A DNA stretch of 64,000 nt from positions 1 to 64,000 of the IMG/VR virus record IMGVR_UViG_3300046507_000447. One strand, 5' to 3'. Within the stretch, counting starts at the first letter, position 1. Each line of letters begins with the position of its first letter. Below the pieces are notes generated by a model. That model was given only the letters and a program-made list of their open reading frames with translations. It had not been told where the DNA came from and ran no database searches. This stretch comes from a virus. Shown one piece after another: positions 24,780 to 46,324 of the stretch. Both the position numbers and the translations under genes were made by a program.

Positions 24780-24808
24780 ACGCTACCCAACAAACAGTTG
24801 GCGGTCAA
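24780..24808 (-). promoter_or_regulatory. Promoter with operator in its spacer, copy A
   Basis: On the minus strand: TTGACC, a 17-base spacer made of GCCAAC-TGTTT-GTTGGG, then TAGCGT. The inverted half-sites fill the whole spacer. Predicted start near 24773, about 20 bases before ATG 24752. Same architecture as 27687 and 34067. Confidence 0.65.
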
Positions 24809-25086
24809 TCAGCCTTGGCGGCTATCAACAGGCGATCGATGCGGTGAAACTGGAAGGTCAAACCGCGAGCGCACGCAGCTATCGTGTCTTCGGATTGCAT
24901 GTGGACCTTGAAGGGTTTGATCCTCCGATCGGCCGGCATGAAGGCCGCGCTGGCGTTCCACCCTTGAGCGGTCCGCTCAATATCCTCAAGGGTTACGGCT
25001 ATCGGGAGCCCGAAGTGCGTGAACACCTCCCGGAGCCGGAAAGCCAGCGCGCGCCTATCGCTTACGGTTCTTCCCGCAAGTTCCAT
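24805..25086 (-). CDS. Hypothetical early protein
   Basis: A 93-residue mixed alpha/beta protein (REVFTHFGLPIAVTLEDIER, AAFMPADRR). Its last codons overlap the -35 box of the following promoter. No family recognised. Confidence 0.55.
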   Translation of the reverse strand: MELAGRTVSDRRALAFRLREVFTHFGLPIAVTLEDIERTAQGWNASAAFMPADRRIKPFKVHMQSEDTIAACARGLTFQFHRIDRLLIAAKAD

Positions 25087-25088
25087 GA

Positions 25089-25697
25089 TCAGTCTTTCGG
25101 TGCGGCGTCTTGCGCCTTCTGGCTATCGGGGCCGAAGATGCGTCCGAATTCCGCGCGCATGTAGATCATCATCGCAAGGTTCATGACGTCGATCATGTCG
25201 CCTTTGACGACGTGCTCGGCCAACATGGACGCGAGCTGCTCTTCACTGACCTCGGCCGAGTCCCACCAGCCGCCGTAACCCTGGCCGCGCTTCAGGCCGA
25301 GCTTGTCCTTCATCATCTTGGCGAAGCGATCGACCGCGAAATTGTCCACGATTGCGTCATCGCGCGCTTTGCATGCGGCGACAAAGCCATCCCAATTGAC
25401 CTTGCGTACCATGCCGAGACCTGTGTCGGTCCAGTAGCCGGCGCCAGTGGGATCCGCTGGATCTGGATGCGGTATCCTCCAGTGCGGCTCGTCGCTCTTC
25501 GGCAATTCCTTGCGGGCGCGCTCGAAGAAGCGCCCAGGCTGGTCGCCAGTCGGCGGCACGAACTGCGCCACGAGGTGCTTGCGGTTGAACTGCAAGCGCG
25601 TTTCTTCCATGTTCTGGCGAAAGGCCGGCCTGTTTTCCGGGATACAGTCGATGAACCAGCTCATCATCAGATCGAAAGTCTTGACTTCATTGGTCAC
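25089..25697 (-). CDS. Conserved phage protein (GRGGW...KGDxxDVMN type)
   Basis: A 202-residue protein. The C-terminal third (KRGQGYGGWWDSAEVSEEQL, then LAEHVVKGDMIDVMNLAMM) matches a motif I know from many phage early proteins, where a similar block follows varied N-terminal parts. Function unknown. Ten-base overlap with the gene upstream. Confidence 0.65.
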   Translation of the reverse strand: MTNEVKTFDLMMSWFIDCIPENRPAFRQNMEETRLQFNRKHLVAQFVPPTGDQPGRFFERARKELPKSDEPHWRIPHPDPADPTGAGYWTDTGLGMVRKVNWDGFVAACKARDDAIVDNFAVDRFAKMMKDKLGLKRGQGYGGWWDSAEVSEEQLASMLAEHVVKGDMIDVMNLAMMIYMRAEFGRIFGPDSQKAQDAAPKD

Positions 25698-25953
25698 GTT
25701 TGCGGAGCCCCTTCATATAGCCCAGGCTGTGCAGCATCTTTGCCAGCAGAACCCAGATCACTTCATCCTTGGCGCGGTGCCCCTCGACGCGGCCCCGCTT
25801 GTTCTCGAAGACGAAATCCGGCTTGCGGAAAACGGTTCCGTTGTAGTTGCGGGTCTCGTCTGTGCCGGTCCCGTCGTTCGCGATGTGCATCACGCCCAGG
25901 GTCGTAACCTTGCGCGTGATGGCAGAGTGCAGCTCGATCCGAATGACGATCAC
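25687..25953 (-). CDS. Conserved small phage protein (RIELHSA...NDGTG type)
   Basis: An 88-residue protein, GTG start in a GTGA overlap. It carries IRIELHSAITRKVTTLG followed by MHIANDGTGT, a pattern shared by a widespread family of short phage proteins of unknown function. A longer in-frame extension upstream lacks coding character and runs over two other genes, so I reject it. Confidence 0.75.
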   Translation of the reverse strand: MIVIRIELHSAITRKVTTLGVMHIANDGTGTDETRNYNGTVFRKPDFVFENKRGRVEGHRAKDEVIWVLLAKMLHSLGYMKGLRKRDQ

Positions 25954-26153
25954 GCCGCGACCCAATAGGAGAAGCATTCGATATAGCAACGGTTCGAAGG
26001 ATTGATCGCGCTCATCACCGAATGCTTCTTGAAGGTGCGGCTTCCCCAGACGACGACTTCCGGTTCGAGCCCAGGCATGAACGGCGGCAGGGAAATCGTC
26101 TGGACATAGCCGGCCGGGTTCCCGTTCTGGTTGGTGAATAGATCTACCAGCAT
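25950..26153 (-). CDS. Small hypothetical early protein
   Basis: A 67-residue protein. The ATG at 26153 is preferred over one 15 bases upstream because AGAAGAG precedes it and it forms a TAATG overlap with the previous gene. Beta-rich (GLEPEVVVWGSRTFKKHS). No family recognised. Confidence 0.55.
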   Translation of the reverse strand: MLVDLFTNQNGNPAGYVQTISLPPFMPGLEPEVVVWGSRTFKKHSVMSAINPSNRCYIECFSYWVAA

Positions 26154-26491
26154 TACTCTTCTCTCCATGTGTTCTGCCCGGTCTTGTCGCGGCAGAGATC
26201 AGCGGTTGGATCGTAGATGACGGCGTTGTCCGGTAGATGGGCCATGCAGACCGTCGCCATCTTGTTACCCGGCGTGTGTGCGGGGCTCGTGGCGAAAGCT
26301 TCCAGCGCCTTGTAACGCTTGTTGCCCTGGCCCTGGGACTCGCAGACGAAACACTCATAGCCCTCGCCGACGGGGAATTCCACCGGGGGTAGGTCGTAGA
26401 CTTCCGGTCGGCCGTCGGGACGCAACAGCTTTTGCAGCCAGTCGTTCCGCTCGTTCTTCTTGCCGGGAGTGATGATTTTACTGGAGGACAT
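26153..26491 (-). CDS. Hypothetical early protein with possible zinc site
   Basis: A 112-residue protein with four cysteines: CFVC at residues 48-51, one in TVCMAHL and one in DLCRDK. CxxC plus C/H pairs suggest a small zinc-binding domain. Start overlaps the upstream gene by 14 bases. Confidence 0.55.
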   Translation of the reverse strand: MSSSKIITPGKKNERNDWLQKLLRPDGRPEVYDLPPVEFPVGEGYECFVCESQGQGNKRYKALEAFATSPAHTPGNKMATVCMAHLPDNAVIYDPTADLCRDKTGQNTWREE

Positions 26492-26693
26492 TGGTTACTC
26501 CTGGAGCGTTCTGGACCTGTTGATCGAGGATCCGCTTGTCCGTGAAATGCATGAGGGTGAGGGTGCCTGGAGCGATGGCGAACTTCGGCCAGTCGCCTCG
26601 CGCGGGGCCTTCATAGATGACTTTCGTTCCCCAGACCACGATGACAGTGCCTGGCAGAATGAAAGACGTCGGGTAGATTTTAACGCCGCTCAT
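26478..26693 (-). CDS. Small hypothetical early protein
   Basis: A 71-residue, beta-rich protein (FILPGTVIVVWGTKVIYEG resembles the VVWGSRTF strand of the product at 25950-26153, so the two may be distant paralogues). ATGA overlap upstream. Confidence 0.55.
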   Translation of the reverse strand: MSGVKIYPTSFILPGTVIVVWGTKVIYEGPARGDWPKFAIAPGTLTLMHFTDKRILDQQVQNAPGVTNVLQ

Positions 26694-27031
26694 AGGGCGG
26701 GCTCCTTGTATTTGCGATAGACCCAGCGGCCATCCTCGCGCTCGACCCGGTCCCAGGCCAGCCTATGGACGCGCTGCATTTTCGAGCCGGCCATTTCAGG
26801 TGGGAAGGGGCTTTCCCGGCAAAGGAGATAGAAATGCAGGCCGTCCGGATCGAAGCTGTGCGTCACCGAATTCAGCCACACGGGCCGCCAGACTTTGTCG
26901 ACCGGAATGAAGATCGTCCGACAGACGCGGTTGACGTAAAGCTCGATCAGCTTTTCGAAGCGCGGGATCCACCAGAGCTGCACGCGCTTGAAGGTGGTTG
27001 GAAAGCAACGCTGGATGAGACGCGGGATCAT
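26690..27031 (-). CDS. Hypothetical early protein
   Basis: A 113-residue basic, aromatic-rich protein (LWWIPRFEKLIELYVNRVC, DRVEREDGRWVYRKYKEP). No transmembrane helix. ATGA overlaps on both sides. No family recognised. Confidence 0.55.
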   Translation of the reverse strand: MIPRLIQRCFPTTFKRVQLWWIPRFEKLIELYVNRVCRTIFIPVDKVWRPVWLNSVTHSFDPDGLHFYLLCRESPFPPEMAGSKMQRVHRLAWDRVEREDGRWVYRKYKEPAL

Positions 27032-27213
27032 AAGAACGCTTGGCCTTTTTCGGTGACGATGTAGATGACGCGACCGTTCAGCCGGTTTTCGTTGACATAG
27101 CCCTTGTTGATCAGGGCCTGGACGATCTTATGGATCAGGGGCGGCGAGGACTTGACCCCGCGCTTGATCAGGCGAAGGCATTCGACTTGCGACGGGGTCA
27201 AGCGGATCGTCAT
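27028..27213 (-). CDS. Small winged-helix protein
   Basis: A 61-residue protein: LTPSQVECLRLI, SPPLIHKIVQALINKGYV, then the wing NGRVIYIVTEKG. This is a minimal MarR/winged-helix fold, so it may bind DNA and act as a regulator or anti-host factor. Five bases separate it from the gene upstream. Confidence 0.6.
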   Translation of the reverse strand: MTIRLTPSQVECLRLIKRGVKSSPPLIHKIVQALINKGYVNENRLNGRVIYIVTEKGQAFL

Positions 27214-27217
27214 GGGC

Positions 27218-27658
27218 TCAGCCTACGTGCAGGTTCTGCAAGCCGCGTTCAGTTTCCTCGTCCAGCTCGCGCTCGACATCGGCCATCGTCTTCGGCTCTT
27301 CGTTGATCGCCGACTTGATCGGATCCGCTTTGGGCATGGCGATCGGCTGCGCGGTCGGGCGTTCGGCCAGCTCGAAACCGTTGGCGAGCGCATGACCTCG
27401 AATGATCTTCTCAGGGAGCGCGACCGGCTTCATCTGGTCGGCGGCGACGGTGGCAATCTGGCGGTCGAAGGACATGAGAAAATCGACCAGCAGCTCTTTG
27501 TCCAGGTGCGCGAACTTCTCGTCGGTCTTGATCGCGGCCTTGTAGATGGCGAGATGGAGGCCGGCGCGCGTGTGCGTCTTGGCTTCCTGTAGATCGGTGA
27601 AGTGCTGGCCGTCAGCGGTCTCGTAGGAGACGACGGCGCGGATAGGTACGTTGTTCAT
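27218..27658 (-). CDS. Hypothetical early protein, first gene behind operator-promoter B
   Basis: A 146-residue protein. Residues 1-35 (RAVVSYETADGQHFTDLQEAK) are followed by a helical middle and a charged end. GAAAGGGTCATCTC precedes ATG. It leads a unit driven from 27687-27715. No family recognised. Confidence 0.6.
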   Translation of the reverse strand: MNNVPIRAVVSYETADGQHFTDLQEAKTHTRAGLHLAIYKAAIKTDEKFAHLDKELLVDFLMSFDRQIATVAADQMKPVALPEKIIRGHALANGFELAERPTAQPIAMPKADPIKSAINEEPKTMADVERELDEETERGLQNLHVG

Positions 27659-27686
27659 GAGATGACCCTTTCAGTTGTCAATCAAG

Positions 27687-27730
27687 CGATAACCCAACTC
27701 ACTGTTGGGTGTCAATTCCCAAACGTTTGG
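27687..27730 (-). promoter_or_regulatory. Promoter with operator in its spacer, copy B, plus upstream palindrome
   Basis: On the minus strand: TTGACA (27715-27710), spacer CCCAAC-AGTGA-GTTGGG (exactly 17 bases), TTATCG (27692-27687). The half-sites are perfect inverted repeats. Just upstream of the -35 lies a second perfect palindrome CCAAACGTTTGG (27719-27730). The best example of this promoter family. Confidence 0.75.
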
Positions 27731-27751
27731 AAATGGATTTGAAAAGTTGGC

Positions 27752-27964
27752 TTATTTCGTCGGCAAAATTTTTCCGAGATTTTTCCGTTCCTCGAACCGT
27801 GCGCCCCGAAGCTTTTCGCGCAGCGCATAGGACAGGGTCTCCAGATAGGTGATTTCGGACTGCAAAACAGCGATCCGGGATTTCCTCGTGCGAATTTTGT
27901 CCACGGTGGATTTCAGGTCGCGCAGGATATACTCGGAAGTCTCGCTCAGCGGCTTGTCGGTCAT
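27752..27964 (-). CDS. Small coiled-coil early protein
   Basis: A 70-residue product from the ATG in an ATGA overlap with the gene at 27961; a longer start would cover that gene. Predicted as one long helix (ILRDLKSTVDKIRTRKSRIA and on). Likely a dimerising coiled coil. Followed by the operator region at 27687-27730. Confidence 0.55.
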   Translation of the reverse strand: MTDKPLSETSEYILRDLKSTVDKIRTRKSRIAVLQSEITYLETLSYALREKLRGARFEERKNLGKILPTK

Positions 27965-28200
27965 AGCATCCTCGTAAAAAAGAACAACGCGGCGGCCAAG
28001 ACGGCGAGACAGATCCAAACAGACGCTTCGATCCAAATTGGCCCCCAACGCAGCGAGAAATCGGTTTCCCAGGTCAAGGTGAGCTGGACGAACGGTTGAT
28101 GGACGCCCCAGAAATTGTGGATGCTCTCGCCGCCTTGCTGGTGGGCCGGTTCGCGCCCGCCGACCCAGCGATTACGATAAGGGAGCCGTGCCAGGATCAT
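27961..28200 (-). CDS. Small tail-anchored membrane protein
   Basis: A 79-residue protein with a hydrophobic C-terminal helix (about 58-76, ASVWICLAVLAAALFFF) and a soluble N-terminal part. Early expression and membrane location would fit superinfection exclusion or modification of host envelope functions. ATGA overlaps on both sides. Confidence 0.55.
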   Translation of the reverse strand: MILARLPYRNRWVGGREPAHQQGGESIHNFWGVHQPFVQLTLTWETDFSLRWGPIWIEASVWICLAVLAAALFFFTRML

Positions 28201-28913
28201 TGCTTCTCTCCCGCTTCGGCCTTTTCGCGCGCCCGTTTTAGATCGGCAGTTTGCTTGCGGATCTGCTCGTTGAAATCGTCCACGGTGATCTGGCCGAGGT
28301 TGATCTGGCCAAGCAGATTGCGGCCTTGTGTCAGACCTTCATCAAACGACTCGTACGAGAGCCAGGGCGTGAAGGAATAAAGCTCCATGATGGCCGCGAC
28401 GGTCTTCTTCGGCAGCAGCGCGTGCAGATCGGCGTCGTAGTTCGTCCCGAGCAACGGCATTGCCGAGCGCTTGCTTTCGGGATGAAGCGGAAACGCCTCG
28501 GCAAGACCCGTCAACAGCTTGTTCATGAGCGCCATGAACGTGCGTTCAGGGCTGGAGTCCTTCTCGATAGAAAATATCGCGCCCTCGGGAATTCGGCGAT
28601 GACCGGTTCGCATGTGCGGGAAAGGGAAGTCGTGCGATCGCCGGCTGAATTTTACCGCGACCATACCTTCACCTTGCCCGGTAGCAGTGGTGGCGCGGCT
28701 GACGTCCTGGGCGCTCCAGAGATCGGCGAGGCAGTTCTCGCATATGTCGGCCTTGTCGCGGAAGCTGTATGTCGTCTCCAGGCAGACCGTGCATTCGACG
28801 CGGCGTGAGCGTTCTTTCCGGCGTTCACGCCGCGCTTCCAGGACGTTCAGGCGAAGCTCATTCCCCACGGCGAGCTTAGAGATCTTCCGGTCTTCATCAC
28901 TCATATGGCGCAT
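28197..28913 (-). CDS. Hypothetical early protein with CxxC zinc site
   Basis: A 238-residue product. ATG 28913 is chosen over the TTG one codon earlier because AAGGAGGG lies seven bases upstream, and it forms TGATG with the previous stop. Residues about 40-62 hold CTVC and CENC, a four-cysteine zinc site, preceded by a very basic helix (RRERRKERSRR). The C-terminal half is helical. Possibly nucleic-acid binding. Confidence 0.6.
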   Translation of the reverse strand: MRHMSDEDRKISKLAVGNELRLNVLEARRERRKERSRRVECTVCLETTYSFRDKADICENCLADLWSAQDVSRATTATGQGEGMVAVKFSRRSHDFPFPHMRTGHRRIPEGAIFSIEKDSSPERTFMALMNKLLTGLAEAFPLHPESKRSAMPLLGTNYDADLHALLPKKTVAAIMELYSFTPWLSYESFDEGLTQGRNLLGQINLGQITVDDFNEQIRKQTADLKRAREKAEAGEKQ

Positions 28914-29122
28914 CAAAAGCCCTCCTTCTTCAGATCCACTTCGGTAATGATCGAGAGTAAGCGAATGGCCTCTTGATACCGCTCTTCATTCAAAGCGCGC
29001 TGTGTGGCGTCCCTGGCGGCGGCAACGGCTGCTCCGCGATCGTAGATGGGGCCGATTTCCGTGCCGTTGTCGCCGACGACGAAATGCGCCGGCCTGGAGA
29101 CCACGCGATACCGGACTGCCAT
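28913..29122 (-). CDS. Small hypothetical early protein
   Basis: A 69-residue protein: a beta hairpin (YRVVSRPAHFVVGDNGTEIG) then helices (AARDATQRALNEERYQEAIRLL in part). Its 3' end carries the strong ribosome site of the next gene. No family recognised. Confidence 0.5.
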   Translation of the reverse strand: MAVRYRVVSRPAHFVVGDNGTEIGPIYDRGAAVAAARDATQRALNEERYQEAIRLLSIITEVDLKKEGF

Positions 29123-29323
29123 TCAACTTTCCTCCCAGACTTCGATCGCCGACAAGCCGCGATCCATGAGTTCGAGCCCCGGCTTGTCGGTGCATATGCG
29201 GATCATGCTATATTGCGAAAGCCAGCCGATGCAGGAGATCACGTCACGAGTGGCCGGGATCTGTTTCTTGTCGCGGATGTCCTTGAGGACTTGGATGGCG
29301 AGAGACTTTTCAGGTTTGTTCAT
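29123..29323 (-). CDS. Small hypothetical early protein
   Basis: A 66-residue mostly helical protein (SLAIQVLKDIRDKKQIPATRD start). ATGA overlap with the zinc-ribbon gene upstream; directly abuts the next gene. No family recognised. Confidence 0.5.
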   Translation of the reverse strand: MNKPEKSLAIQVLKDIRDKKQIPATRDVISCIGWLSQYSMIRICTDKPGLELMDRGLSAIEVWEES

Positions 29324-29724
29324 CGCGCGTAATTCGGCCGTTTGTCGCCATGCTGGACGATCGTGAATTCCTTGCAGTCTGTTTCGGCGGCCGGATCATC
29401 CTGGTCGAAATACTTGCGGCAGAAACCAGGGGTCTTCGCGGACTGCTCATCGCGTGCTTTAGCCCGACCGCAGCAAGCGCAAAAGGGATCGTGGCCGGGT
29501 TCCGGTTTGAGCGCAGCTTCTTCCTCGTAGCGCTTGCCGCAGAACGGGCAATGCGACGCCTGGACAGCGACGGCCTTCATTTTACCCCGGCCCTTCTCGA
29601 TCTGCTCGGTTCCGATATAGGGCGTCGAGCCCAGGCCGTCCTTATCGAGGGTGATCAGCATCTGGATCCGCGTGTTGCGCTCAGCCAGGAGACCATTGAA
29701 TTTTTCCATGCAGTTGCAGGTCAT
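29320..29724 (-). CDS. Conserved phage zinc-ribbon protein
   Basis: A 134-residue product from ATG 29724 (GGAAG eight bases upstream; ATGA overlap with a short gene at 29721). The start MTCNCMEKFNGLLAERNTR, then IETEQ-like TEQIEKGRGK and CPFCGKRYEE, matches a common small phage family. A second cluster (FCACCGRAK) and C-terminal cysteines add another possible metal site. Function unknown. Confidence 0.7.
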   Translation of the reverse strand: MTCNCMEKFNGLLAERNTRIQMLITLDKDGLGSTPYIGTEQIEKGRGKMKAVAVQASHCPFCGKRYEEEAALKPEPGHDPFCACCGRAKARDEQSAKTPGFCRKYFDQDDPAAETDCKEFTIVQHGDKRPNYAR

Positions 29725-29858
29725 GGCTGAGCTTCCACTTTGTGCGCAGTGATCCGGAAGGGGCCGAAAGCGAAAACCCATTTTCCCGGCTTGCTTCTGA
29801 CGACGCCAGCTCTCCAGCTCGTCGGGAAGATTACAAGTCCAATTCCATAGTGCGACAT
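29721..29858 (-). CDS. Very small protein (45 residues)
   Basis: ATG 29858 is preceded by GAAAGGACAAACAG and the frame ends in an ATGA overlap with the zinc-ribbon gene. The product MSHYGIGLVIFPTSW... is beta-rich and basic, with a GKWVFAFGPFRIT strand pair. Coupling and ribosome site support it. No family recognised. Confidence 0.5.
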   Translation of the reverse strand: MSHYGIGLVIFPTSWRAGVVRSKPGKWVFAFGPFRITAHKVEAQP

Positions 29859-29880
29859 CTGTTTGTCCTTTCGGGGTATT

Positions 29881-29924
29881 GGCGGCCGGCTTATCTGGGC
29901 CAGGGGTGGGTAAAGCCGGCCGCC
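29881..29924. terminator. Long GC-rich inverted repeat between early genes
   Basis: GGCGGCCGGCTT and AAGCCGGCCGCC form a perfect 12-bp inverted repeat around a 20-base loop, between the 484-residue gene and the 45-residue gene. No U-run follows on the minus strand, so it may attenuate transcription, protect RNA ends or bind protein rather than act as a simple terminator. Confidence 0.45.
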
Positions 29925-29946
29925 TTCTCATCGGCTAGAAAGGGCT

Positions 29947-31401
29947 CTAGTCTTTCTTGGCCGAGGATAGGTTGAATTCGGCGATCTGTTTCGTGGCGCG
30001 GGCGATGGACGTTTCCACCTCGGAAGAGATGATCGCGAGAGCGATAGAGGGCGACAGGCCGTCTTGCTCAGCCATTTCTACCAATTCGTTGATCGCTTTT
30101 CGAGCCTCGACATGCGCTTCCACGGTGTGTTTGCACATGCGCTCGCAGATCTTCTTCGTCGTCGCTGCAAAGCTATCGAGGGTGAGCGGGTCTCGTTCTG
30201 CGGTATCCATTTTCACGCCTTCCGCGAACGCTTTGTAGGGATCCACCGGCAGTTCGTCGCTAACTGTTTCGAGGGTGAATTGAGGAACATTGCCGAGAAA
30301 CTTGTCGCCGGAATAAAGACCGCTCGGGCCGAAGAGGATCTTGGCCGAGGGGCCTTTGACCTGATAGCCCATGCCGAGAACCGGATCCATGGAGACCTTG
30401 CGTTCGGGCGGCGCGGTTACGGCCTTGAGCCATTCCTTAACCCGGATTTCGTATTCGGCCCCCGAAAGTGGGGTTTCAAGTACCCGTGCTGTAGCGCGAT
30501 CGAGTTCAACGCGGCGAGGCGCGTCGGTATCCAGCGAGAGGTGCCACGCCGGGTTAAACTTTTTACCGTGGACAATGAATTCCATGCCGTCCCAGCAGGC
30601 GTACTTGTCCCCAGGTTCGACAATGCATTCATTTAAGCGCTCGACAAAGACAAAGCCGGCCTTTGTGAGCCGCATGAAATCGCCATCACGTTCGACAAGT
30701 TTGCGATGAACTAAACGCTCGCCTCCTATGCCAAAAAGCCTATAGAAAATGTTTGTCATTAGCTGCCCGGTACGACCGCCGTAGAGATGCAACAGGCCGT
30801 GGGTCGCGCTCTCCGGGAAGCGCCAGACCTCGCCGGAAGAGATCTTTTCCTGGTGCTCCTGCTCTTTGGCCTTCTCCTCGGCGAGCGCCGCATCCGCAGT
30901 TTCAATCCGTTCAATCAGCGTCAGCCGGTCGAGGATGTGCTGGTCGATACGATCGAGGACATAGCGATACTGGCTCGGGTGGGCCAGTGTGATTTTCTGT
31001 AGCTTGCATTCGGTATTGATCTGCTCAAACAGCGCTTTGAACATGCCGAGTTCTGGGCCTTCCAATTCGCGCGCGGATCTCCAAATGCTTCGGAACCGGT
31101 CGAGGTATTCTGTCGATTTGATCACACGCTCCGGGGCTATCCGGGCAGCTCGTCGGGCGAGGTTGCGCAGAATGTCGCGGTTGCGCACTGCCGCAAAATG
31201 TGGCCAGCGGTCGCCGAGCTGGATGAAATTGAGCTTTTCACGCGGCGGCAGAGGCGGAATTTTCGTGTCGGTGATCTCGGGCTTGTCGAGAACCTTGCGC
31301 ACGGCCTCCCGGATGGTCTCGGCCAGGGCGTTCATGTTCGCGATCATTTCGTCGGTCCAGACCCTAATGGCCGGCTCAATCGATATCGTTACTTTCGCCA
31401 T
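29947..31401 (-). CDS. Large early protein of unknown function (484 residues)
   Basis: One of the three largest minus-strand genes. Charged helices dominate residues 15-200. A possible winged-helix-like stretch lies near 215-275 (HLYGGRTGQLMTNIFYRLFG, LVERDGDFMRLTKAGFVFVE). The middle contains beta strands around FNPAWHLSLDTD. No catalytic motif recognised. ATG has AATAGGAGAAACG upstream and sits behind the TTAGCC operator at 31418-31433, so its expression is probably controlled there. Confidence 0.65.
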   Translation of the reverse strand: MAKVTISIEPAIRVWTDEMIANMNALAETIREAVRKVLDKPEITDTKIPPLPPREKLNFIQLGDRWPHFAAVRNRDILRNLARRAARIAPERVIKSTEYLDRFRSIWRSARELEGPELGMFKALFEQINTECKLQKITLAHPSQYRYVLDRIDQHILDRLTLIERIETADAALAEEKAKEQEHQEKISSGEVWRFPESATHGLLHLYGGRTGQLMTNIFYRLFGIGGERLVHRKLVERDGDFMRLTKAGFVFVERLNECIVEPGDKYACWDGMEFIVHGKKFNPAWHLSLDTDAPRRVELDRATARVLETPLSGAEYEIRVKEWLKAVTAPPERKVSMDPVLGMGYQVKGPSAKILFGPSGLYSGDKFLGNVPQFTLETVSDELPVDPYKAFAEGVKMDTAERDPLTLDSFAATTKKICERMCKHTVEAHVEARKAINELVEMAEQDGLSPSIALAIISSEVETSIARATKQIAEFNLSSAKKD

Positions 31402-31417
31402 TCGTTTCTCCTATTAG

Positions 31418-31433
31418 TTAGCCATTCGGCTAA
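31418..31433 (-). promoter_or_regulatory. TTAGCC-N4-GGCTAA operator, copy 1
   Basis: A perfect inverted repeat TTAGCC-ATTC-GGCTAA just upstream of ATG 31401 and overlapping the stop of the ribbon-helix-helix gene at 31430. A -10-like TAACTA follows on the minus strand. A second copy lies at 38328-38343. Confidence 0.55.
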
Positions 31434-32661: not shown

Positions 32662-32806
32662 CGGTTCTCTCTTTTCGAAATGGCGAATTTTCAACCCAGA
32701 ACAACCAGAAGTCATAACGCGGCTCTTCGGCCGGCGTCAGCTTGGCGTCCTCGCGAATGCGGTATCGTTCGGCGTCACTCAGGTTTTTGGCCACGGGAGT
32801 CGGCAT
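32615..32806 (-). CDS. Small hypothetical early protein
   Basis: A 63-residue basic protein (NLSDAERYRIREDAKLTPAE). It overlaps the next gene by 47 bases and begins at the last base of the DUF7352 gene. No family recognised. Confidence 0.5.
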   Translation of the reverse strand: MPTPVAKNLSDAERYRIREDAKLTPAEEPRYDFWLFWVENSPFRKERTDDRSTVPNPVHRRGT

Positions 32807-33078: not shown

Positions 33079-33632
33079 GCGAGGTTCTCATGCGCGTCGA
33101 GCGCGGCTTGCAGGTTCAAGAACACCTGATCGTCGCCACCCTTCTCGACCTTCCACGCGCGGATCTCGTTGATTGCTGCCTGGAGCAGCGAGCGCGTCAC
33201 CAGGATCGACGGATCGTGGGGTTCGCTTCCCTCGGCCATGGCCTTGAGCGTGTCATGCGAAGGGCCGACGAGCTTGTCCGGATCGCCGCCGAACGCACGG
33301 ATGACCTGCCGCCAAACATCGTCAAGAGTGCGACGATGGACATTGCGCAATGGCCGGTTCTGGACCTGCTCATTCCAGCGCTGGACGGCCCAATCGAGCA
33401 CAGATATCGGCGGTTGCGGCCATTCGCCGTCATCCGTCTCCACACGATACCGGATCCAGCCCGTGTCATCGATCTCGATATGCGTCACACGTTCTTTGTT
33501 GAGCAGCTCGCCGGCTCGCGGCAAAACCTCCAGCGCAAAGCGGCGAACCGTCATCTGCCCGGTAAAACCGCGCGGCATTTCATCGACACGGGTCATTTGT
33601 TGGTCGGCAACGGCCCAGGCTGTCTTGGTCAT
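33075..33632 (-). CDS. Conserved phage protein (RPLRNVHRRTLDDVWRQVI type)
   Basis: A 185-residue protein. Residues about 92-130 (NRPLRNVHRRTLDDVWRQVI, then FGGDPDKLVGPSHD) are a recurrent motif in phage early proteins. An alpha-helical C-terminus follows. Function unknown. ATGA overlap with the next gene upstream. Confidence 0.6.
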   Translation of the reverse strand: MTKTAWAVADQQMTRVDEMPRGFTGQMTVRRFALEVLPRAGELLNKERVTHIEIDDTGWIRYRVETDDGEWPQPPISVLDWAVQRWNEQVQNRPLRNVHRRTLDDVWRQVIRAFGGDPDKLVGPSHDTLKAMAEGSEPHDPSILVTRSLLQAAINEIRAWKVEKGGDDQVFLNLQAALDAHENLA

Positions 33633-34027
33633 GCGAGTTTCCTTTCGAGACGGTCGGAGAGGGGCTTCAAGGCGTTGTCCCAGATCTCAAGTGCTAGAGG
33701 ATTGTCGGAATGGTCGGCGATCACGTCGTAACCGTCATTGCCGTAGATGAGCCGGAACCAGCCGCACGCGCCAATTTCGTCGGGGAGGTGGACGGACAGC
33801 ACGTCCTCCTCTGTCGAATACATCGCTTTGAGGATGTGGTGATAGCGCTGCGAGCGCGTAACGACGGTTTCCTCGCCGTCGTTGATCGAAACCTGGAGTC
33901 CGCGCGCTATACAGGCTTTGATGAGACAGGAGACCATGCGACGCTCGGCGTCGATACGGCGGGCGAGAGCCCAGGCCTTGTCCTTTTGCGCGGCTTTATA
34001 GGCGCGCTGGAAGTCGTTCATACTCAT
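33629..34027 (-). CDS. Hypothetical early protein behind operator-promoter C
   Basis: A 132-residue protein (ATG 34027; an in-frame ATG follows two codons later). N-terminal basic helix (FQRAYKAAQKDKAWALARR) and beta-rich C-terminal half. First gene of the unit starting at 34067-34095. No family recognised. Confidence 0.6.
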   Translation of the reverse strand: MSMNDFQRAYKAAQKDKAWALARRIDAERRMVSCLIKACIARGLQVSINDGEETVVTRSQRYHHILKAMYSTEEDVLSVHLPDEIGACGWFRLIYGNDGYDVIADHSDNPLALEIWDNALKPLSDRLERKLA

Positions 34028-34066: not shown

Positions 34067-34095
34067 GTTCTAGGCAACAGATAGTTGGGTGTCAA
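34067..34095 (-). promoter_or_regulatory. Promoter with operator in its spacer, copy C
   Basis: On the minus strand: TTGACA (34095-34090), 17-base spacer CCCAAC-TATCT-GTTGCC, TAGAAC (34072-34067). Predicted start near 34060, about 33 bases before ATG 34027. Confidence 0.7.
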
Positions 34096-34185
34096 CTGAT
34101 AATTGGGCTTGCAAACAGCTTTCCACACGCCTATATCCATTCTCGTTGCAGCCGCAATCTGTGACAAGAATGACCTTTCGGGGAT

Positions 34186-39831: not shown

Positions 39832-39860
39832 GGTTTTGACCTTTCAGGGGATAGGGGGTT

Positions 39861-40061
39861 TCAGGCGAGCGCGGCGCGGAGCTTGTCGAGCACGGTAAAC
39901 GGGACTTCGTAATAATCTTCCCACGAGTCTTCCGCGTCTCCGGAAGCAAGAACCATTCGACTGCCTTGCCGGATATCGGTTGCGCCGAAAGCTTCGAGCA
40001 TGGCTTTGTTGTCCGCCCATTTCACAACGGCTTCAGGATCAACCGGCGTAAGCTTGTTCAT
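39861..40061 (-). CDS. Small hypothetical early protein
   Basis: A 66-residue acidic helical protein (DPEAVVKWADNKAMLEAFGA). ATGA overlap with the gene upstream. No family recognised. Confidence 0.5.
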   Translation of the reverse strand: MNKLTPVDPEAVVKWADNKAMLEAFGATDIRQGSRMVLASGDAEDSWEDYYEVPFTVLDKLRAALA

Positions 40062-40249
40062 CGCACGGTCCGCCTTTTCATCACGATAGACGTGCTGTCG
40101 GCAACCATATCGGCTAGGAGAATAGCGTTTGGTGTCCCCAACTTCTCAAGCGCGGAAGCGATCAAGGCGATGTCATCGCGCTCCAATTCCAGCTTTTGCG
40201 TCCTGACGCGACGTTCCGGGTTGTATGTCTGCGAAGAATTATTAGCCAT
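40058..40249 (-). CDS. Small hypothetical early protein
   Basis: A 63-residue basic helical protein (RTQKLELERDDIALIASALE). Overlaps the gene upstream by eight bases. No family recognised. Confidence 0.5.
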   Translation of the reverse strand: MANNSSQTYNPERRVRTQKLELERDDIALIASALEKLGTPNAILLADMVADSTSIVMKRRTVR

Positions 40250-41180
40250 CGTCCGACTCCTTGGAAATCTTCACTTCGCCGATGAATTTCCCGCAATCGG
40301 AATAGATCGCGGCGGCGGGAATGCCGTTCGTTTCGAAGTCAGTCGCAACGCGGCGCAACACGGCTCCAATCTCCGTTGCAGGCGAGGCCCAGTTTTCGAG
40401 CGTGGCAAAGCTCACTTCGATATGTTCCACGTCGGCAAACGCTTCCGCGCGTTCGTCGCGCTCCTTGATCGTCATAGGCGTTTCCAGAGACGACAAATCG
40501 GCAATGAGGATCGAGCCATCGGCAAGCCCTTCGAACGTGCTGTCGCGCCCGATGCAATCAATCGCTTCCGCCATGTTGGCGAAATGGGGCCTGGTAGTTT
40601 CAACAGGTTCAACGGCGGCAACCGGCTCTTTCGGCACATAGCTGGCATAGGGCGCGGTATAGCCGTAACGGATCTGCATCCGCGCCTTGGCTGCATAGTC
40701 GTGCCATGCGGAACCGTTCATCGGCTCATTGTACTTGAGACACATTGCAGCGGCGAAATTGGAAGCGGTTGCAGATTGGACTCCCAATGATCCAGCGGCT
40801 TCATTGTGAAAATTCTTTAGCGACACATACCGATATCCAGCGCGCGCGCCCAGAGTGCGAGCCGCGTTCAACACGAGGCCGAACACGTCACAATAGATCT
40901 CGATTGCCCGTTCCTGGATGTCGGCGCGTTGCCCAGCGGCAAGCGTGCGCGTTGCGTGGCCGAACTGGACCTTGACGCGGTTAGACACGGCAACGTCAAT
41001 CGATCGGTCGAAATACTGAAAGACCGTCGCATAATAGGTCCGCGACTTCGCCCAATCGAAAAACTCGATATCGAAGGTGAACATGGTCTTTGAGCCGTCC
41101 TGTTTCTGAGTGCGCGCGACGACGCCTTTCAGATCGGTTTGCAGCATGATTTTGAATGCTTCGTTGCTGTAATCGGTCAT
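40242..41180 (-). CDS. Hypothetical early protein (312 residues)
   Basis: ATG 41180 with AAAGG about nine bases upstream; the 83 codons before it read through two other genes in the wrong frame. N-terminal domain beta-rich (TMFTFDIEFFDWAKSRTYYA, RVKVQFGHATR). Middle helical (LVLNAARTLGARAGYRY). No family recognised. Large and near the origin-like region, so a DNA role is possible. Confidence 0.6.
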   Translation of the reverse strand: MTDYSNEAFKIMLQTDLKGVVARTQKQDGSKTMFTFDIEFFDWAKSRTYYATVFQYFDRSIDVAVSNRVKVQFGHATRTLAAGQRADIQERAIEIYCDVFGLVLNAARTLGARAGYRYVSLKNFHNEAAGSLGVQSATASNFAAAMCLKYNEPMNGSAWHDYAAKARMQIRYGYTAPYASYVPKEPVAAVEPVETTRPHFANMAEAIDCIGRDSTFEGLADGSILIADLSSLETPMTIKERDERAEAFADVEHIEVSFATLENWASPATEIGAVLRRVATDFETNGIPAAAIYSDCGKFIGEVKISKESDDG

Positions 41181-41185
41181 GGGGA

Positions 41186-41368
41186 TCAACCTTTGTTGGT
41201 GATGCAGAATGAGAGGGAAAGCTTGCCGATGCGGACGAACGTCAAGCCGCCGACCTTGCGTACAGAGAAGCGGGGGAGACGCGGCATGCGGACGGAAGGG
41301 CGTTCGGCGATAGCCATGGCGCTTGCCATCAACAGGGGCGCGGAGAAGGTGGCGAGGGCGATAGACAT
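41186..41368 (-). CDS. Small protein with hydrophobic N-terminus
   Basis: A 60-residue product from ATG 41368 (GGGGAG eight bases upstream). N-terminal hydrophobic segment (ALATFSAPLLMASAMAIA) could be a signal or anchor. The end LTFVRIGKLSLSFCI recalls short phage proteins of unknown role. Confidence 0.5.
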   Translation of the reverse strand: MSIALATFSAPLLMASAMAIAERPSVRMPRLPRFSVRKVGGLTFVRIGKLSLSFCITNKG

Positions 41369-41382
41369 GGTCCGATCTCCCC

Positions 41383-41622
41383 TTAGTTGGCCTGGACGCA
41401 ATAAGCGCCCTGGACAAGCTCGCTGGCATAGGTGGCTGTATTCATGCCTTCCATGCAATCGTCAAAGGTAAGGTCATAGTCGAGCGTCTGGATATCGCCG
41501 TTGTTATCGACCCAATCAAGGTTGTAGGTCGTATCGTCTGCCATGACCTGCGAGGCCATGTAGGCCATGCCAGAGAGGGCAAGGGTAGCAGACATGATAG
41601 TCGTCATAATCAAGGTACGCAT
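41383..41622 (-). CDS. Small exported protein
   Basis: A 79-residue protein with a signal peptide (about residues 1-28, ending ASQVMA before DDTTYN) and an acidic mature part with two cysteines (DDCMEG, GAYCVQ) able to form a disulfide. GGAGCTAGCTC precedes ATG. With 35472-35969 it is one of two clear secreted products of the early block. Confidence 0.6.
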   Translation of the reverse strand: MRTLIMTTIMSATLALSGMAYMASQVMADDTTYNLDWVDNNGDIQTLDYDLTFDDCMEGMNTATYASELVQGAYCVQAN

Positions 41623-42155
41623 GAGCTAGCTCCAATAGCTGTTGCAACCCCCTATATGGGGAGCCCTTGTCTTAGGCCTTTGTCAATGTGATTGCAACCG
41701 TAATCAGTGATCAATGGTAAACAAAGTTGCAAGCGCTCGTGCTTGCCGTACCCATGCCGAATGGCGCTCAGAGTCTAGCGAATAGAGGGGCTTAACCCCT
41801 ACTCCCTGGTAGCGCTTGTTTAGGGCTTTACGTGAATTCGTTTTAGCTAATGCAACCATGTCCACCCATGGCCGGTCGCCGGTATGGGGGTATGACCTAT
41901 GCAAGGCGTGCATGTCCTATAGGGGTATGAGCGTATGCCGGTATGGCCATGTAACGCTATAACATCAATACGTTAGGCCTACTAATAGAGGTCATGAGCA
42001 CGAGTAGAGGCAAGCGAGGGGCGAATGACGCACAGACGCGAGGTTGACCAGTGGTCGCTTGGGTCCCTCCCCTAGGTTGCAGGCTGACAGGGGGGCGCGG
42101 AGCCCTCGGTCGTCCACTCGATTCCGGATTTTCCCAGGCCCCGACAGCCGTTATT

Positions 42156-42173
42156 GTTACCCATATGGGTAAC
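42156..42173. repeat. 18-bp perfect palindrome in origin-like region
   Basis: GTTACCCATATGGGTAAC reads the same on both strands. Its half GTTAC also ends the 42331-42366 repeats, so the same protein may recognise both. Confidence 0.7.
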
Positions 42174-42330
42174 TATACTCGGTACATATTCGACCAGGAT
42201 ATCCTTTTGCCCCCAGGGTAACGTAATAACGTAACAATGTGAGGAAACACTGAAATACCGGGGCTAAATGACCTCGATTTGCGGATTTGCCGTTTTCCGG
42301 GTTTTCTGGGTAAATCGACAGTCATCACCC

Positions 42331-42366
42331 GTAATCGTCACTGTTACCGGTAATCGTCAATGTTAC
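42331..42366. repeat. Iteron pair 1
   Basis: GTAATCGTCACTGTTAC at 42331-42347 and GTAATCGTCAATGTTAC at 42350-42366, 19 bases apart, one mismatch. CACCCGTAA before and TTACGGGTG after make an outer inverted repeat. A weaker copy (GTAAATCGACAGT) starts near 42310. Confidence 0.75.
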
Positions 42367-42522
42367 GGGTGTGAGGGGTGTGACGACCGTGACAGCCCCT
42401 ATTTTAGCTTGTCTTATGAAAAACCTAATGATTTCAATATGTAAGACCCCCTAAGACAGGTGAGACAGCTATTCTATATAAAGGAATATTTTAGAAACCA
42501 TAATAAAGAGCGCGACCTGTAT

Positions 42523-42560
42523 ACGTAAGCATTACCAGCACACGTAAACATTACGAGCAC
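42523..42560. repeat. Iteron pair 2
   Basis: ACGTAAGCATTACCAGCAC at 42523-42541 and ACGTAAACATTACGAGCAC at 42542-42560 are exact tandem 19-base units with two mismatches, just after the AT-rich segment. Confidence 0.75.
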
Positions 42561-42743
42561 GCGAGGCACGAGGCCAAGCGGTGGGCATAAGGCGTGCGTA
42601 GCGCGTAGCGCCAATATACTTTAGGGAAAAGCTTGACTTCTGTCTCACTGGCTCAGCGGTATGAAAAACCCAGGATTCCCAGGGCCTTCGGCCTGAGACC
42701 CACGGTGAGACAAGATTTAGCCCGTCTCAGCAGGAATCAAGAA

Positions 42744-42761
42744 GGCCGGGTTTCCCCGGCC
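42744..42761 (-). terminator. Terminator after the primase-helicase gene
   Basis: On the minus strand GGCCGGG-GAAA-CCCGGCC followed by TTCTTG, 37 bases past the primase-helicase stop. A tight seven-bp GC stem with a GNRA loop. The U-run is imperfect. Confidence 0.55.
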
Positions 42762-42797
42762 ATTCTAACGTTTACCCGTAATGATCCCGCGTGCTCG

Positions 42798-45689
42798 TCA
42801 CACCACGTCGAAGTCATCTTCGGCGTCATCGCCCTGATAAATCGAGTATCCCTTGAGAATGTCGGCGTGTATGGCGCTTTCGCGGACGACCCAACGCCGC
42901 TGGGGCGATCCCATGATCCGGCGACGATTATCGCTGTTCTGAACGTCGCGGCCCCAACCGGGCAGCATTTGCATGGCCTTGCCGATGTTTTGGGTCGTTG
43001 CCGCGTCGGTGACGACGCCGTGCTGTTTATTGAGCGCGTGCTTGATAGCCTGCTCGCGGGTGAAGACGGTTCGCAGGACGAGCGTGTCATCATCCACGCC
43101 GTCGGCCAGATGCTCGCCGAACTGCGCGTGAACGACCGCGCCGATCTCCTGGGCGAACTGCGTGAAGGTGATCGGGGTTTCCAGCCATTCGAGGATAGCC
43201 TGCGCCCAGATCTCGTAGGTTTCTTCGGTTCGAGCCTCGCCTTGTAGCCGCAGGGCCTCGGCCTGGGCCGCAGAACCTTGAAGCGTGAGCGGCAGGGTCT
43301 CGTTGGGAAACTGGTCGCGCAGCTCGAAATAGGCGTGGACGGCCTCGGCCCAGATCTGATCGCGCTCAGCGTTGATCCCCTGGATATCTATGTACTCGCG
43401 ACGCTTTGTGACGACCGGCCAGTAGGAACGGTTGCCGGTGGGATCCTTGAGGTACTTTTTGTCGTTCGTCGTGCCCCAGCAGACGCAGACGCGAGGAAAC
43501 TCGCTGACGCGGCGATCGTAGGCCATGCGGACGTCGTCCACGGTTCTGCGCATGAACGCCTTGGCCGAGTTGTGGTCCGACTTGTGGAAACCGGACAATT
43601 CCGGAAGCTCGATCCCCCATTTGCCGGTGATCTCTTCGGCGACGCGCTGTTTCTCGTCCAGCTTGGCGGAAAGCTCGCCGAACCAGTCTTCCGAATAGAG
43701 CGCCATGATCAGCCAGGACTTACCGATGCCGGTCCAGCCCTCCAGGATCGGGGCGTAGTCGAACTTGTGGCCGGGTTCGAAGATCCGCGTCACGCTGGCG
43801 ACGATCGTCAACCGAGAAACCTGCCGGTGATAATCGTTGTCTTCCAGGTCGAGGTATCGGATCAAGAACGTGTCCAGGCGCGGCTTGCCATCCCACTTTT
43901 GGGTGAGCAGGTAGTCGCGGATCGGATGGAACGGCGTGATGCGGGCCGCCAGCTCGATCCCGTCGATCAGGTCGGCTTTCGTCGGCCGCATGCCATAGCC
44001 CTGGAGCTTCTCGGCGTTGTGCGGGCTCTCCAGGACGGCGCGAACCGTCATGTCGTGGTGATCCTGCCAACGGTCGCCGTTCTTCTTATCGCGGACGATG
44101 ACATTCGGCGCAGTCGTTATGCGCGGCCTGATATCGCGGGCGATGACGACGTTCTTGTCGAATTCGTTGAAACGGATCGCGTTGATGAGGCGGGGGTCGT
44201 TCTGGATGATTGTCGCCACATTGTGCAGCGTCGATTTGATCTCGGCGTTCTCGGTAAACTGGAGATCGCCTAGGAACCAGTTTTCGCGCGGCGTGCGCTT
44301 CTCGGATGGCTTCGGCCGGCCACCCACGGTCTTGGATCGTGGAGGGGCTTCAGTTTTGGCAGAGGGCGCATCTGGTTGCTCCGGTTCAACTTCTGCGAAT
44401 AGTCCATCGCCATCACCAGATCCGTCGTCGGCGGAACCGGTATCAGCCCCGCCTCCAGATCGACTATCATCGTCTCCCGGCCGTTCATCGTCACTATCGC
44501 CGCTGTCACGCCCTGAAGCGTGTAGATCCGCATTGTCGTCGCCATCTGTGAACTCCTGGGCCTCTACGCCCGCGTCCTCGAACATGGACCCGACCTCGAA
44601 CTTTTCCGAGACGCGGGTCTTCGCATATTCCTTGTCGGTCTTCAGCAGATCGACCAGGGCCTTATAGGACGGCATGTCCGTCGGCGTCATGCCCTCCTTC
44701 GCCTTGCTGTCGCTTTCACCGAAAAGGTGGACGCGGACGAGGTCGAAGGCGTTGACGTTCATATCGCAGATCGGGTCATGCCCGTGGTGCGAATACATGA
44801 ACATGCCGTTGTCATAGACGATCGCGCCGTTCGAGCTGGTCGAGCCCGCATAGGTGTAACGCGGGTGCCCGGAATTCTCGTCGCCAGGGATGTAGACGCC
44901 AGGAAGGAATTTCTCCATCGCGTCGAAGATGTCGTAGGTTCGGCAGAAGACGCCGACCGGCCCGCGCTTCGAACGCGGATCCTCGGCCTTGTCAGCGCGT
45001 TTGCGCAGATCTTCGTTCGGATGCTTCGGCAGGTTGGCGAAATTGCGCCAGTCGCCGAATATGGCCTCGAACTCGGCCAGGATCGCGTCGGGGTCGAGGA
45101 GCGCGCCGAACTGCTCGTAGGCGAAAAAGATCTTGCGATCGTTCTTTGAGCACGAGGGCTTGAACATCATCTGCGCGCCGCGATAGGAGACGACGTCCAC
45201 GAGGTTCATTTCGTGGTCGAGCTTCCAACCGATGAAGCGGACAATGGCCGTGTACTCGTCAACGTCCACCTTGCGCTTCATCGGCATGAACAGACGAACG
45301 CGGGGCTCTTCGACCGTGTGCCGGCGAGACGAATGCCAGAAGGCCTCATATTGGCTGATCGGCGTCAGACCCAGCTCGATCTCGTCCAGGATCGAGGCCG
45401 GCGCGTAATCGACGTCGATCGTCAGCATATCGCGCGGCAGGACGTTGCGGAGCGACCGATGGCCGTCTTTGCACTGTGCGCCCGAGATCCAACCGTTAAC
45501 GGCCTTGAGCTTGTCCTGCTCGTCTTTCGGCATGCGGTCGAACTGCTGCCGCGACTCCATGGTCACGGCCGGCTCTTTCAGGATCTTCTTGAGGGAGGAC
45601 CAGGACTCCGTCCGGTTCTTCGACTTGGCGAGGTTGTTGCCCCGGCCCTCGGCCCAGCCGACGACATATTGCTCAAATTTGCCTTGCAT
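42798..45689 (-). CDS. Primase-helicase: AEP-like N-terminus with VapE-type helicase
   Basis: A 963-residue protein. N-terminal part has primase-polymerase-like motifs: MLTIDVDYA (DxD, residues about 88-96) and HSSRRHT (SxH) followed by EPRVRLFMP. Residues about 370-470 are an acidic low-complexity linker. From about 530 the VapE superfamily 3-like helicase is seen: Walker A GWTGIGKSW, IELPELSGF, VDDVRMAYDRR, then TTNDKKYLKDPTGNRSYWPV. It should prime and unwind at the origin next door. First large gene of the minus block. Confidence 0.85.
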   Translation of the reverse strand: MQGKFEQYVVGWAEGRGNNLAKSKNRTESWSSLKKILKEPAVTMESRQQFDRMPKDEQDKLKAVNGWISGAQCKDGHRSLRNVLPRDMLTIDVDYAPASILDEIELGLTPISQYEAFWHSSRRHTVEEPRVRLFMPMKRKVDVDEYTAIVRFIGWKLDHEMNLVDVVSYRGAQMMFKPSCSKNDRKIFFAYEQFGALLDPDAILAEFEAIFGDWRNFANLPKHPNEDLRKRADKAEDPRSKRGPVGVFCRTYDIFDAMEKFLPGVYIPGDENSGHPRYTYAGSTSSNGAIVYDNGMFMYSHHGHDPICDMNVNAFDLVRVHLFGESDSKAKEGMTPTDMPSYKALVDLLKTDKEYAKTRVSEKFEVGSMFEDAGVEAQEFTDGDDNADLHASGRDSGDSDDERPGDDDSRSGGGADTGSADDGSGDGDGLFAEVEPEQPDAPSAKTEAPPRSKTVGGRPKPSEKRTPRENWFLGDLQFTENAEIKSTLHNVATIIQNDPRLINAIRFNEFDKNVVIARDIRPRITTAPNVIVRDKKNGDRWQDHHDMTVRAVLESPHNAEKLQGYGMRPTKADLIDGIELAARITPFHPIRDYLLTQKWDGKPRLDTFLIRYLDLEDNDYHRQVSRLTIVASVTRIFEPGHKFDYAPILEGWTGIGKSWLIMALYSEDWFGELSAKLDEKQRVAEEITGKWGIELPELSGFHKSDHNSAKAFMRRTVDDVRMAYDRRVSEFPRVCVCWGTTNDKKYLKDPTGNRSYWPVVTKRREYIDIQGINAERDQIWAEAVHAYFELRDQFPNETLPLTLQGSAAQAEALRLQGEARTEETYEIWAQAILEWLETPITFTQFAQEIGAVVHAQFGEHLADGVDDDTLVLRTVFTREQAIKHALNKQHGVVTDAATTQNIGKAMQMLPGWGRDVQNSDNRRRIMGSPQRRWVVRESAIHADILKGYSIYQGDDAEDDFDVV

Positions 45690-45692
45690 GGA

Positions 45693-45920
45693 TCAGACGC
45701 CCCGCGCCTGGAGGTCGTAGAGAAGAGCGCGCAGGTTTGCGATCGGGATCGTCCGATACTTGCCGCTCTTCCAATGGCGAACGAGATTGTAATCGACGCC
45801 CATCAATTCGGAGAGGGCTTTGGACTTGATATGAAAATCTATCATGGTCGAGCGGAGAAGAGCTGTTCGGTATTCCGTGTCTTTCCACAGGGGGTCGTTT
45901 GCCGGCGCGACCGTCATCAT
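45693..45920 (-). CDS. Small HTH regulator
   Basis: A 75-residue protein with a helix-turn-helix (KALSELMGVDYNLVRHWKSG, residues about 34-53) of the Cro/XRE type. It lies between the primase gene and a strong palindrome (45937-45963) that covers its own upstream region, so autoregulation is likely. ATG-ATG start; GAAGG about 10 bases upstream. Confidence 0.7.
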   Translation of the reverse strand: MMTVAPANDPLWKDTEYRTALLRSTMIDFHIKSKALSELMGVDYNLVRHWKSGKYRTIPIANLRALLYDLQARGV

Positions 45921-45936
45921 CGTCTAATACCTTCGG

Positions 45937-45963
45937 GCTAAAGTGTGACTATGACACTTTAGC
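45937..45963. promoter_or_regulatory. Palindromic operator upstream of the HTH gene
   Basis: GCTAAAGTGT (45937-45946) and ACACTTTAGC (45954-45963) form a perfect 10-bp inverted repeat with a seven-base spacer, directly before the start at 45920. Likely operator of this regulator or of the neighbour at 45975. Confidence 0.7.
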
Positions 45964-45974
45964 TACTCGGGGAA

Positions 45975-46271
45975 TCAGTGGTCCGCAAGAGCCAAGCCGT
46001 AAATATAGGGGGAAAACTGATCGATGGTCACGGTCGAACCCGGCAGGCCGCAGACCTTTTGCGCCTTGATTGGCGGAATTCTTCCCTTCTTTATCCACAG
46101 ATAAACTCCCCAATCGGACATGTTGAGGTGCTTCGACAGCATCTCGATCGACTTCACGCCGTCTGGATTGTGGATAACTTTGCCTTTTTCATTGATCGAG
46201 GACGGCGGGCACGCCTCCAGAAGTAGGTCGTGAAACGGGCCAAGATCCCGGTTTCTCAGTATTTTCGACAT
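45975..46271 (-). CDS. Cro/YdaS-like regulator
   Basis: A 98-residue protein with a helix-turn-helix at about residues 42-62 (IEMLSKHLNMSDWGVYLWIK) followed by GRIPPIKAQKVCGL, the form seen in Cro/YdaS proteins of phages. It starts the minus-strand block and faces the plus-strand replication genes, so it is placed to control the switch. GGAG eight bases before ATG. Confidence 0.75.
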   Translation of the reverse strand: MSKILRNRDLGPFHDLLLEACPPSSINEKGKVIHNPDGVKSIEMLSKHLNMSDWGVYLWIKKGRIPPIKAQKVCGLPGSTVTIDQFSPYIYGLALADH

Positions 46272-46283
46272 GCATTAGCTCCG

Positions 46284-46324
46284 ATTTCTAAGTCAGAAAT
46301 ACTCGCCCAACTGATAGTTGACAA
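46284..46324 (-). promoter_or_regulatory. Early switch promoter with two operators, copy D
   Basis: On the minus strand TTGTCA (46324-46319), 17-base spacer, TATTTC (46301-46296). CAAC-TATCA-GTTGGG lies four bases closer to the -35 than in the other copies. A second inverted repeat ATTTCT-AAGTC-AGAAAT (46284-46300) covers the -10 and start region. No clear plus-strand promoter for 46406 was resolved. Confidence 0.6.

Follow-up and report, generated by a model that had tools for sequence, protein, structure and literature searches.

Predicted operators of a probable phage early repressor at four promoters of a Casjensviridae-like phage

The stretch of DNA analyzed here (hereafter, the window) comprises positions 1 to 64,000 of the IMG/VR virus record IMGVR_UViG_3300046507_000447, a 65,902-base record classed as linear, and the element under study is a palindrome, CAAC-N5-GTTG, which is shared by four minus-strand promoters of this phage and lies between or overlaps their −35 and −10 boxes (Table 1). 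The spacer of every one of these promoters is 17 bp. Three of the promoters, at 24, 27 and 34 kb, carry the putative operator in the middle of the spacer, and the first of them precedes an operon with a DUF3310 gene; the fourth, at 46 kb, heads an operon consisting of the genes for a Cro-like helix-turn-helix (HTH) protein, P0002, a second small HTH protein, P0001, and a primase. The original prediction had described three sites of one build and a fourth in which the operator was moved by four bases, each just ahead of a gene start. The sequences read as described, with the shift of the fourth directed towards the −35 box, and the plausible start codons (ATG at 24752, 27658, 34027 and 46271) are located 25–40 bases past the end of the respective −10 boxes; the observation of a repeated minus-strand operator was confirmed. 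A fifth, imperfect copy is located 18 bp from the first 34-kb operator and overlaps the −35 box of that promoter.

Table 1. Promoters, putative operators and associated genes in the window
Feature	Position	Strand	Description
Promoter of the Cro-like gene and primase operon	46296..46324	-	TTGTCA-ACTATCAGTTGGGCGAG-TATTTC, 17 bp spacer
Putative operator of the Cro-like promoter	46308-46320	-	CAACTATCAGTTG; overlaps −35; core 4 bases nearer −35
34-kb promoter	34067..34095	-	TTGACA-CCCAACTATCTGTTGCC-TAGAAC, putative operator mid-spacer
Fifth, imperfect operator copy	34091..34107	-	GTCAACTGATAATTGGG on + strand; 7/8 arm bases
27-kb promoter	27687..27715	-	TTGACA-CCCAACAGTGAGTTGGG-TTATCG, putative operator mid-spacer
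24-kb promoter	24780..24808	-	TTGACC-GCCAACTGTTTGTTGGG-TAGCGT, putative operator mid-spacer
Cro-like HTH protein P0002, proposed binder	45975..46271	-	98 aa
Second small HTH protein P0001	45693..45920	-	75 aa; HTH_26 match weak, below cut-off
Primase/helicase, VapE-like domain	42798..45689	-	behind Cro-like gene
First gene after 34-kb promoter	33629..34027	-	132 aa, without Pfam match
First gene after 27-kb promoter	27218..27658	-	146 aa
First gene after 24-kb promoter	24363..24764	-	133 aa from TTG; ATG 24752 likelier
DUF3310 gene, second in 24-kb operon	23888..24352	-	154 aa

The pattern TTGACNNCCAACN5GTTGNNTA, with up to two mismatches allowed, was found three times, compared with a mean of 0.02 in shuffled sequences, none of the 100 shuffles reaching three. 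Similarly, TTGAC-N3-CAAC-N5-GTTG was found three times and did not occur when its arms were reversed; on these two counts, chance was rejected as the origin of the layout. The exact bare core CAAC-N5-GTTG was present six times, with 0.71 expected from 400 dinucleotide shuffles, none of which reached six. Four of these cores belonged to the promoters, while the other two, at 52309 and 52330, were both located within the helicase gene and were rejected as operators. Equal numbers of hits inside genes had been named in advance as a finding that would refute the operator family; hits inside genes account for two of the six bare cores.

The window record is a Casjensviridae-like phage. Phage families were matched by its exonuclease, annealing protein, polymerase, helicase, terminase, portal, protease and capsid; the terminase closest to that of the window was found in Synechococcus virus S-ESS1 (approximately 45% identity), and the seven records fetched around matches of this kind are placed in Casjensviridae. 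Relatives were gathered through exonuclease homology (50 loci and the best 80 of 236 loci), whereas a primase search and a megablast of the 24–46.5 kb part of the window against phages yielded none. Among 228 stretches from bacterial genomes, one encoded a relative, namely, L209, a contig in a Phreatobacter metagenome-assembled genome, with one core that was apparently coding.

The spacer-centred layout was found in the relatives G012 (11644 and 15997), G013 (48957 and 52733), G009 (10728) and G007 (19181), as well as in S-ESS1 (42422) and G011, and in all six of them the DUF3310 operon lies behind such a site. Homologues of the 146-aa gene were the first genes behind G012:11644 and G013:52733 (E-value = 3.6e-16 and 1e-17, respectively), and a homologue of the 133-aa first gene of the 24-kb operon follows G012:15997. 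In the fragment L228, the layout precedes a gene matching, by eye, the first gene behind G013:48957. Thus, the scan of related phages proposed in the original prediction revealed the layout ahead of orthologous genes, those of the DUF3310 operon and the 146-aa gene. A Pfam DUF3310 gene was present in 10 of the 21 records searched, the window included, and an exact core was located no more than 700 bases ahead of it in six of these ten, namely, in the window, AchV4 (Achromobacter phage, NC_052974; L032/L033), G007, G009, G011 and S-ESS1. G012 and G013 gave no Pfam DUF3310 match; in these two records, BLASTP identified the DUF3310-like gene behind the site. Since this recognition started from the sites themselves, both records stand outside the unbiased count. 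A third register was observed at G012:7179 and G013:58147, where TTGTGC is followed directly by CAAC-N5-GTTG, with the −10 box at 17 bp. Among the 20 fetched stretches, the cores at G013:35743, G009:9534, G021:10528 and G017:57215 look like chance matches in coding sequence. Seven stretches of viral contigs containing TTGACACCCAACN5GTTGG, none of which matched ten window proteins, were taken for chance, with no control for this pattern.

The promoter of the Cro-like gene was compared across relatives using a Cro-like profile scan of 135 sequences (130 exonuclease loci, four others and the window), which gave 90 matches at an E-value of 0.01 and 41 distinct proteins at 1e-9 or better. Two of the 41 rows, L042 and L046, came from a promoter-pattern scan and represent the same contigs as L078 and L069 of the exonuclease set. 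After omission of the five loci without an exact TTGTCA, GTTG was found five bases past CAAC in exact form in 16 of 36 TTGTCA-bearing upstream regions and with at least three of its four bases in 31 of 36, while each of the other offsets gave 0–1 exact matches, and partial ones in no more than 5 of 36. When distinct 17-mers were counted once, 12 of 31 were exact and 26 of 31 were partial or exact. Clustering of the proteins at 70%, 60% and 50% left 24 of 28, 18 of 22 and 8 of 11 representatives, respectively, with at least three right-arm bases (background 2.8%, given for the 70% clusters). The five central bases showed no clear conservation, the center drifting among the relatives, and a TATATN-like −10 box was found at 17 bp. 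Because this register is kept across the Cro-like promoters of relatives, the 46-kb site, which the original prediction had treated as the displaced one, is probably ancestral. Tryptophan at position 4 of the recognition helix tracked the exact GTTG (13 of 17 versus 3 of 19; Fisher 5.6e-4), although this association is a hint only, being uncorrected for kinship.

Judged from the sequences, the repeat is a real, conserved family of predicted operators spread over several promoters: its layout is far above chance and is kept at orthologous places in relatives, and to this extent the original interpretation is supported. The four sites are probably operators of a single early repressor encoded by the phage; the most likely candidate is P0002, the Cro-like protein. 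The profile of the P0002 family matched, weakly, the Cro-type chains 5w8y (E-value = 3.5e-5) and 3bd1 (E-value = 2e-4), and 22 of the 28 family members matched YdaS_toxin and 9 of 28 matched P22_Cro. The structural model of P0002 had a mean predicted local distance difference test score of 77.8, and the best row of a second-look comparison was the Xfaso1 Cro protein (3bd1, Z = 6.4, root-mean-square deviation of 2.2 over 61 residues). Thus, P0002 is a small HTH protein with a Cro-like profile and fold, if by weak matches, and its gene heads an operon that carries the palindrome at its own promoter and would be expressed early.

From the sites, the excess of the layout, its recurrence and the linked Cro-like gene, we infer the identity of the binder, its binding as a dimer, repression and its timing. 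The Cro-like protein would recognise CAAC-N5-GTTG as a dimer. Since the site at its own promoter overlaps the −35 box, the protein may limit its own operon (Cro, the second HTH protein and primase). In the three other early promoters the palindrome occupies the 17-bp spacer, and a dimer bound there would obstruct RNA polymerase. Accumulation of Cro after infection would then turn down the four leftward early units together.

Several findings weigh against this reading. The reversed core GTTG-N5-CAAC was present five times in the record, four of them in the window, against six for the core itself, so that the bare-core count is weak evidence when taken alone; as a dyad, the core ranked only ninth in the window among 3328 dyads, and L013 and L017 share the core at 52309 together with its coding context. 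In 17 further records, the bare core was above the reversed control in seven, equal to it in six and below it in four, and it is for this reason that the case rests on register and on place and orthology, and not on counts. The matrix scan of the original prediction held for the spaced layout, which was far above shuffles, but not for the loose full-arm pattern CCCAAC-N5-GTTGGG with up to three mismatches, which showed no enrichment (31 versus 25.75 expected). The −10 boxes of the three spacer-centred sites are weak, and these sites were not among the predictions of a generic sigma-70 scan of 24–43 kb. At the Cro-like promoter, the left arm cannot be told apart from the conserved −35 region (TTGTCAAC). 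No exact core was found within 700 bases ahead of DUF3310 in G010, G020, Phobos and N133 (Klebsiella phage, NC_052975; L034/L035), and the 34-kb site had no orthologue among the compared sites of nine relatives. The layout scan of viral contigs gave 19 stretches in 17 contigs, of which seven stretches in five contigs were accompanied by a Cro-like gene, and the other 12 contigs were without a Cro-like match; by eye, L228 and L231 among these resemble fragments of relatives, L226 is ambiguous, and the others look like chance. P0002 itself had no Pfam match at an E-value of 0.01, and a Foldseek search of its model against PDB returned nothing at 0.001 or better (3bd1, E-value = 1.8). For AchV4 and N133, moreover, a CI-like repressor is an equally plausible binder.

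The whole records of these two phages contained 28 (AchV4) and 27 (N133) sites of the form TTCAAC-N5-GTTGAA with up to two mismatches, about 1.4 being expected, and 13 and 18 of them, respectively, were centred between annotated genes, where intergenic DNA makes up only 5.0% and 9.9%. The phage core ranked second in AchV4 and fourth in N133 among the 3328 dyads, the shifted dyad TCAA-N7-TTGA being at the top in both. Each phage encodes a CI-like protein (phrog_2967) and an integrase. Some of the sites immediately precede the CI-like genes and others fall between late structural genes, in a stoperator-like spread. AchV4 is described as lytic, with no stable lysogens recovered, and a term search of the main text of that report found neither "operator" nor "palindrom" (PMC7996906). 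Ruegeria phage V16, which also has a CI-like protein and an integrase, contained one core versus zero in the control and no core in its 20–61 kb part. In G022, the contig of L128, six cores versus zero in the control were observed, several with T/A flanks like those of AchV4 and N133, together with a Cro-like match (5e-10). The palindrome just upstream of the CI-like gene would fit a different phage regulator as the binder, CI-like in temperate relatives, with the operators kept from a temperate ancestor. For the window phage, this is quite unlikely: neither a CI-like protein nor a tyrosine integrase (PF00589) was found in the window record, which is possibly incomplete and in which serine integrases were not searched for, or in S-ESS1, Phobos, PspYZU01 and four relative fragments (G007, G009 and G011–G013 lay outside the CI search). 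S-ESS1 keeps the sites, and in it phrog_2967 matched nothing but the Cro-like gene. The window gene at 52831–53535, considered as a CI homologue, proved to be the terminase small subunit. The original prediction had left the choice of binder between the HTH proteins at 45693 and 45975, and the latter appears to fit better. The gene for the former, P0001, does belong to the operon that the conserved operator immediately precedes, and the nearest exact-site relatives of the window are among the 6 of 16 exact-site loci with a homologue of it; however, a homologue was found at only 9 of the 41 loci and at none of the 10 remaining exact-site loci, and nothing of the kind was seen between the Cro-like gene and the primase in S-ESS1 and AchV4, which makes P0001 very unlikely as the general binder.

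A reader from outside the phage was also considered, namely, a host XRE regulator of the PraR/CdxA family, through which the early units would answer to the state of the host (density or stress). The sites match CAAC-N5-GTTG, the consensus obtained for PraR by systematic evolution of ligands by exponential enrichment (SELEX) in A. caulinodans and, as cited there, in R. leguminosarum (PMC5527310), and the sites of TgrL, a PraR/CdxA family protein of Caulobacter phage phiCbK, overlapped those of the host proteins in chromatin immunoprecipitation sequencing under overexpression (PMC10688885). In line with a host regulator, the window record yielded no HTH_3 protein. Nevertheless, host control of this kind is unlikely. 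Phages of Achromobacter and Klebsiella are likewise enriched in this core (the genomes of those hosts were not searched for PraR), and its high rank among the dyads of AchV4 and N133 favors a phage protein over a host reader. With a PraR fragment as the query, the ten genera named among the matches listed, of 54 with PraR-like plasmid matches, are alphaproteobacterial. In many phages, the promoter of a phage regulator carries the motif, P0002 is unlike PraR (hhalign probability of 8.6%), and for PraR promoters TTGCAA, not this core, was derived in PMC4149787. The locus L041, without a Cro-like match, carries four cores in about 200 bases (3200–3560), one of them in an XRE-like frame by eye; the core may therefore be reached repeatedly, and another repressor may use it. 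The palindrome might instead be a spacer site of a MerR-like activator or an RNA hairpin, as the weak −10 boxes of the centred sites and the ability of inverted repeats to form hairpins could indicate, but this is extremely unlikely. Spacers of MerR promoters are 19–20 bp, and those observed here are 17 bp; the CAAC and GTTG letters are kept at orthologous promoters without paired changes. A hairpin or terminator was rejected, given the location of the sites upstream of the expected start and the absence of a T-run after any of the four sites of the window.

The reading of P0002 as the common repressor places the window phage closest to the lambda-type Cro proteins (Xfaso1 Cro 3bd1, N15 Cro 2hin/6on0 and P22 Cro), with which it shares a small HTH protein encoded in front of the replication genes, the Cro-like profile and fold and the palindrome at its own promoter; it differs in that no CI-like partner or tyrosine integrase was detected in the record and in that the operator is reused at three distant early promoters. 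The stoperators of cluster A mycobacteriophages similarly repeat one repressor site over the phage genome, but they are asymmetric and stop elongation, whereas the window phage has a palindrome inside promoters (PMC9283540, PMC6550527). Stoperators lie between genes and off promoters, an arrangement which the window cores, at promoters or in the helicase gene, do not have and to which AchV4 and N133, with sites between late genes, are nearer. PraR, PhrR and CdxA share the identical SELEX consensus and are HTH proteins (PMC5527310, PMC10688885), but they are host-encoded, and P0002 has no convincing similarity to them. The AchV4 lysogeny module contains gp71, a YdaS/Cro-like protein homologous to P0002, and, in addition, the CI-like gp78 (PMC7996906). 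Searches of a set of open-access papers turned up no account of this operator in phages of this kind. Adjoining the primase gene of the window, the region 41700–42790 of approximately 1 kb has little coding sequence and, by eye, several short repeated words, and is possibly a replication origin.

It is also conceivable, although improbable, that phage Cro and host PraR read the same operator, so that their regulons are cross-wired in an alphaproteobacterial host. If so, the early units of the phage could be held in check by host PraR according to the state of the cell, and phage Cro could take over the PraR genes for attachment and biofilm formation, comparable to the overlap seen for phiCbK TgrL. 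For the little-characterised Casjensviridae-like phages, the analysis provides a testable early circuit with one operator and a named candidate regulator, in two promoter layouts in the window phage and a third in its relatives, and the matched variants of operator and recognition helix offer material for studying how this branch of Cro proteins reads DNA. The arrangement suggests that several early operons scattered over the genome can be governed by a Cro-like protein even where no CI is detected.

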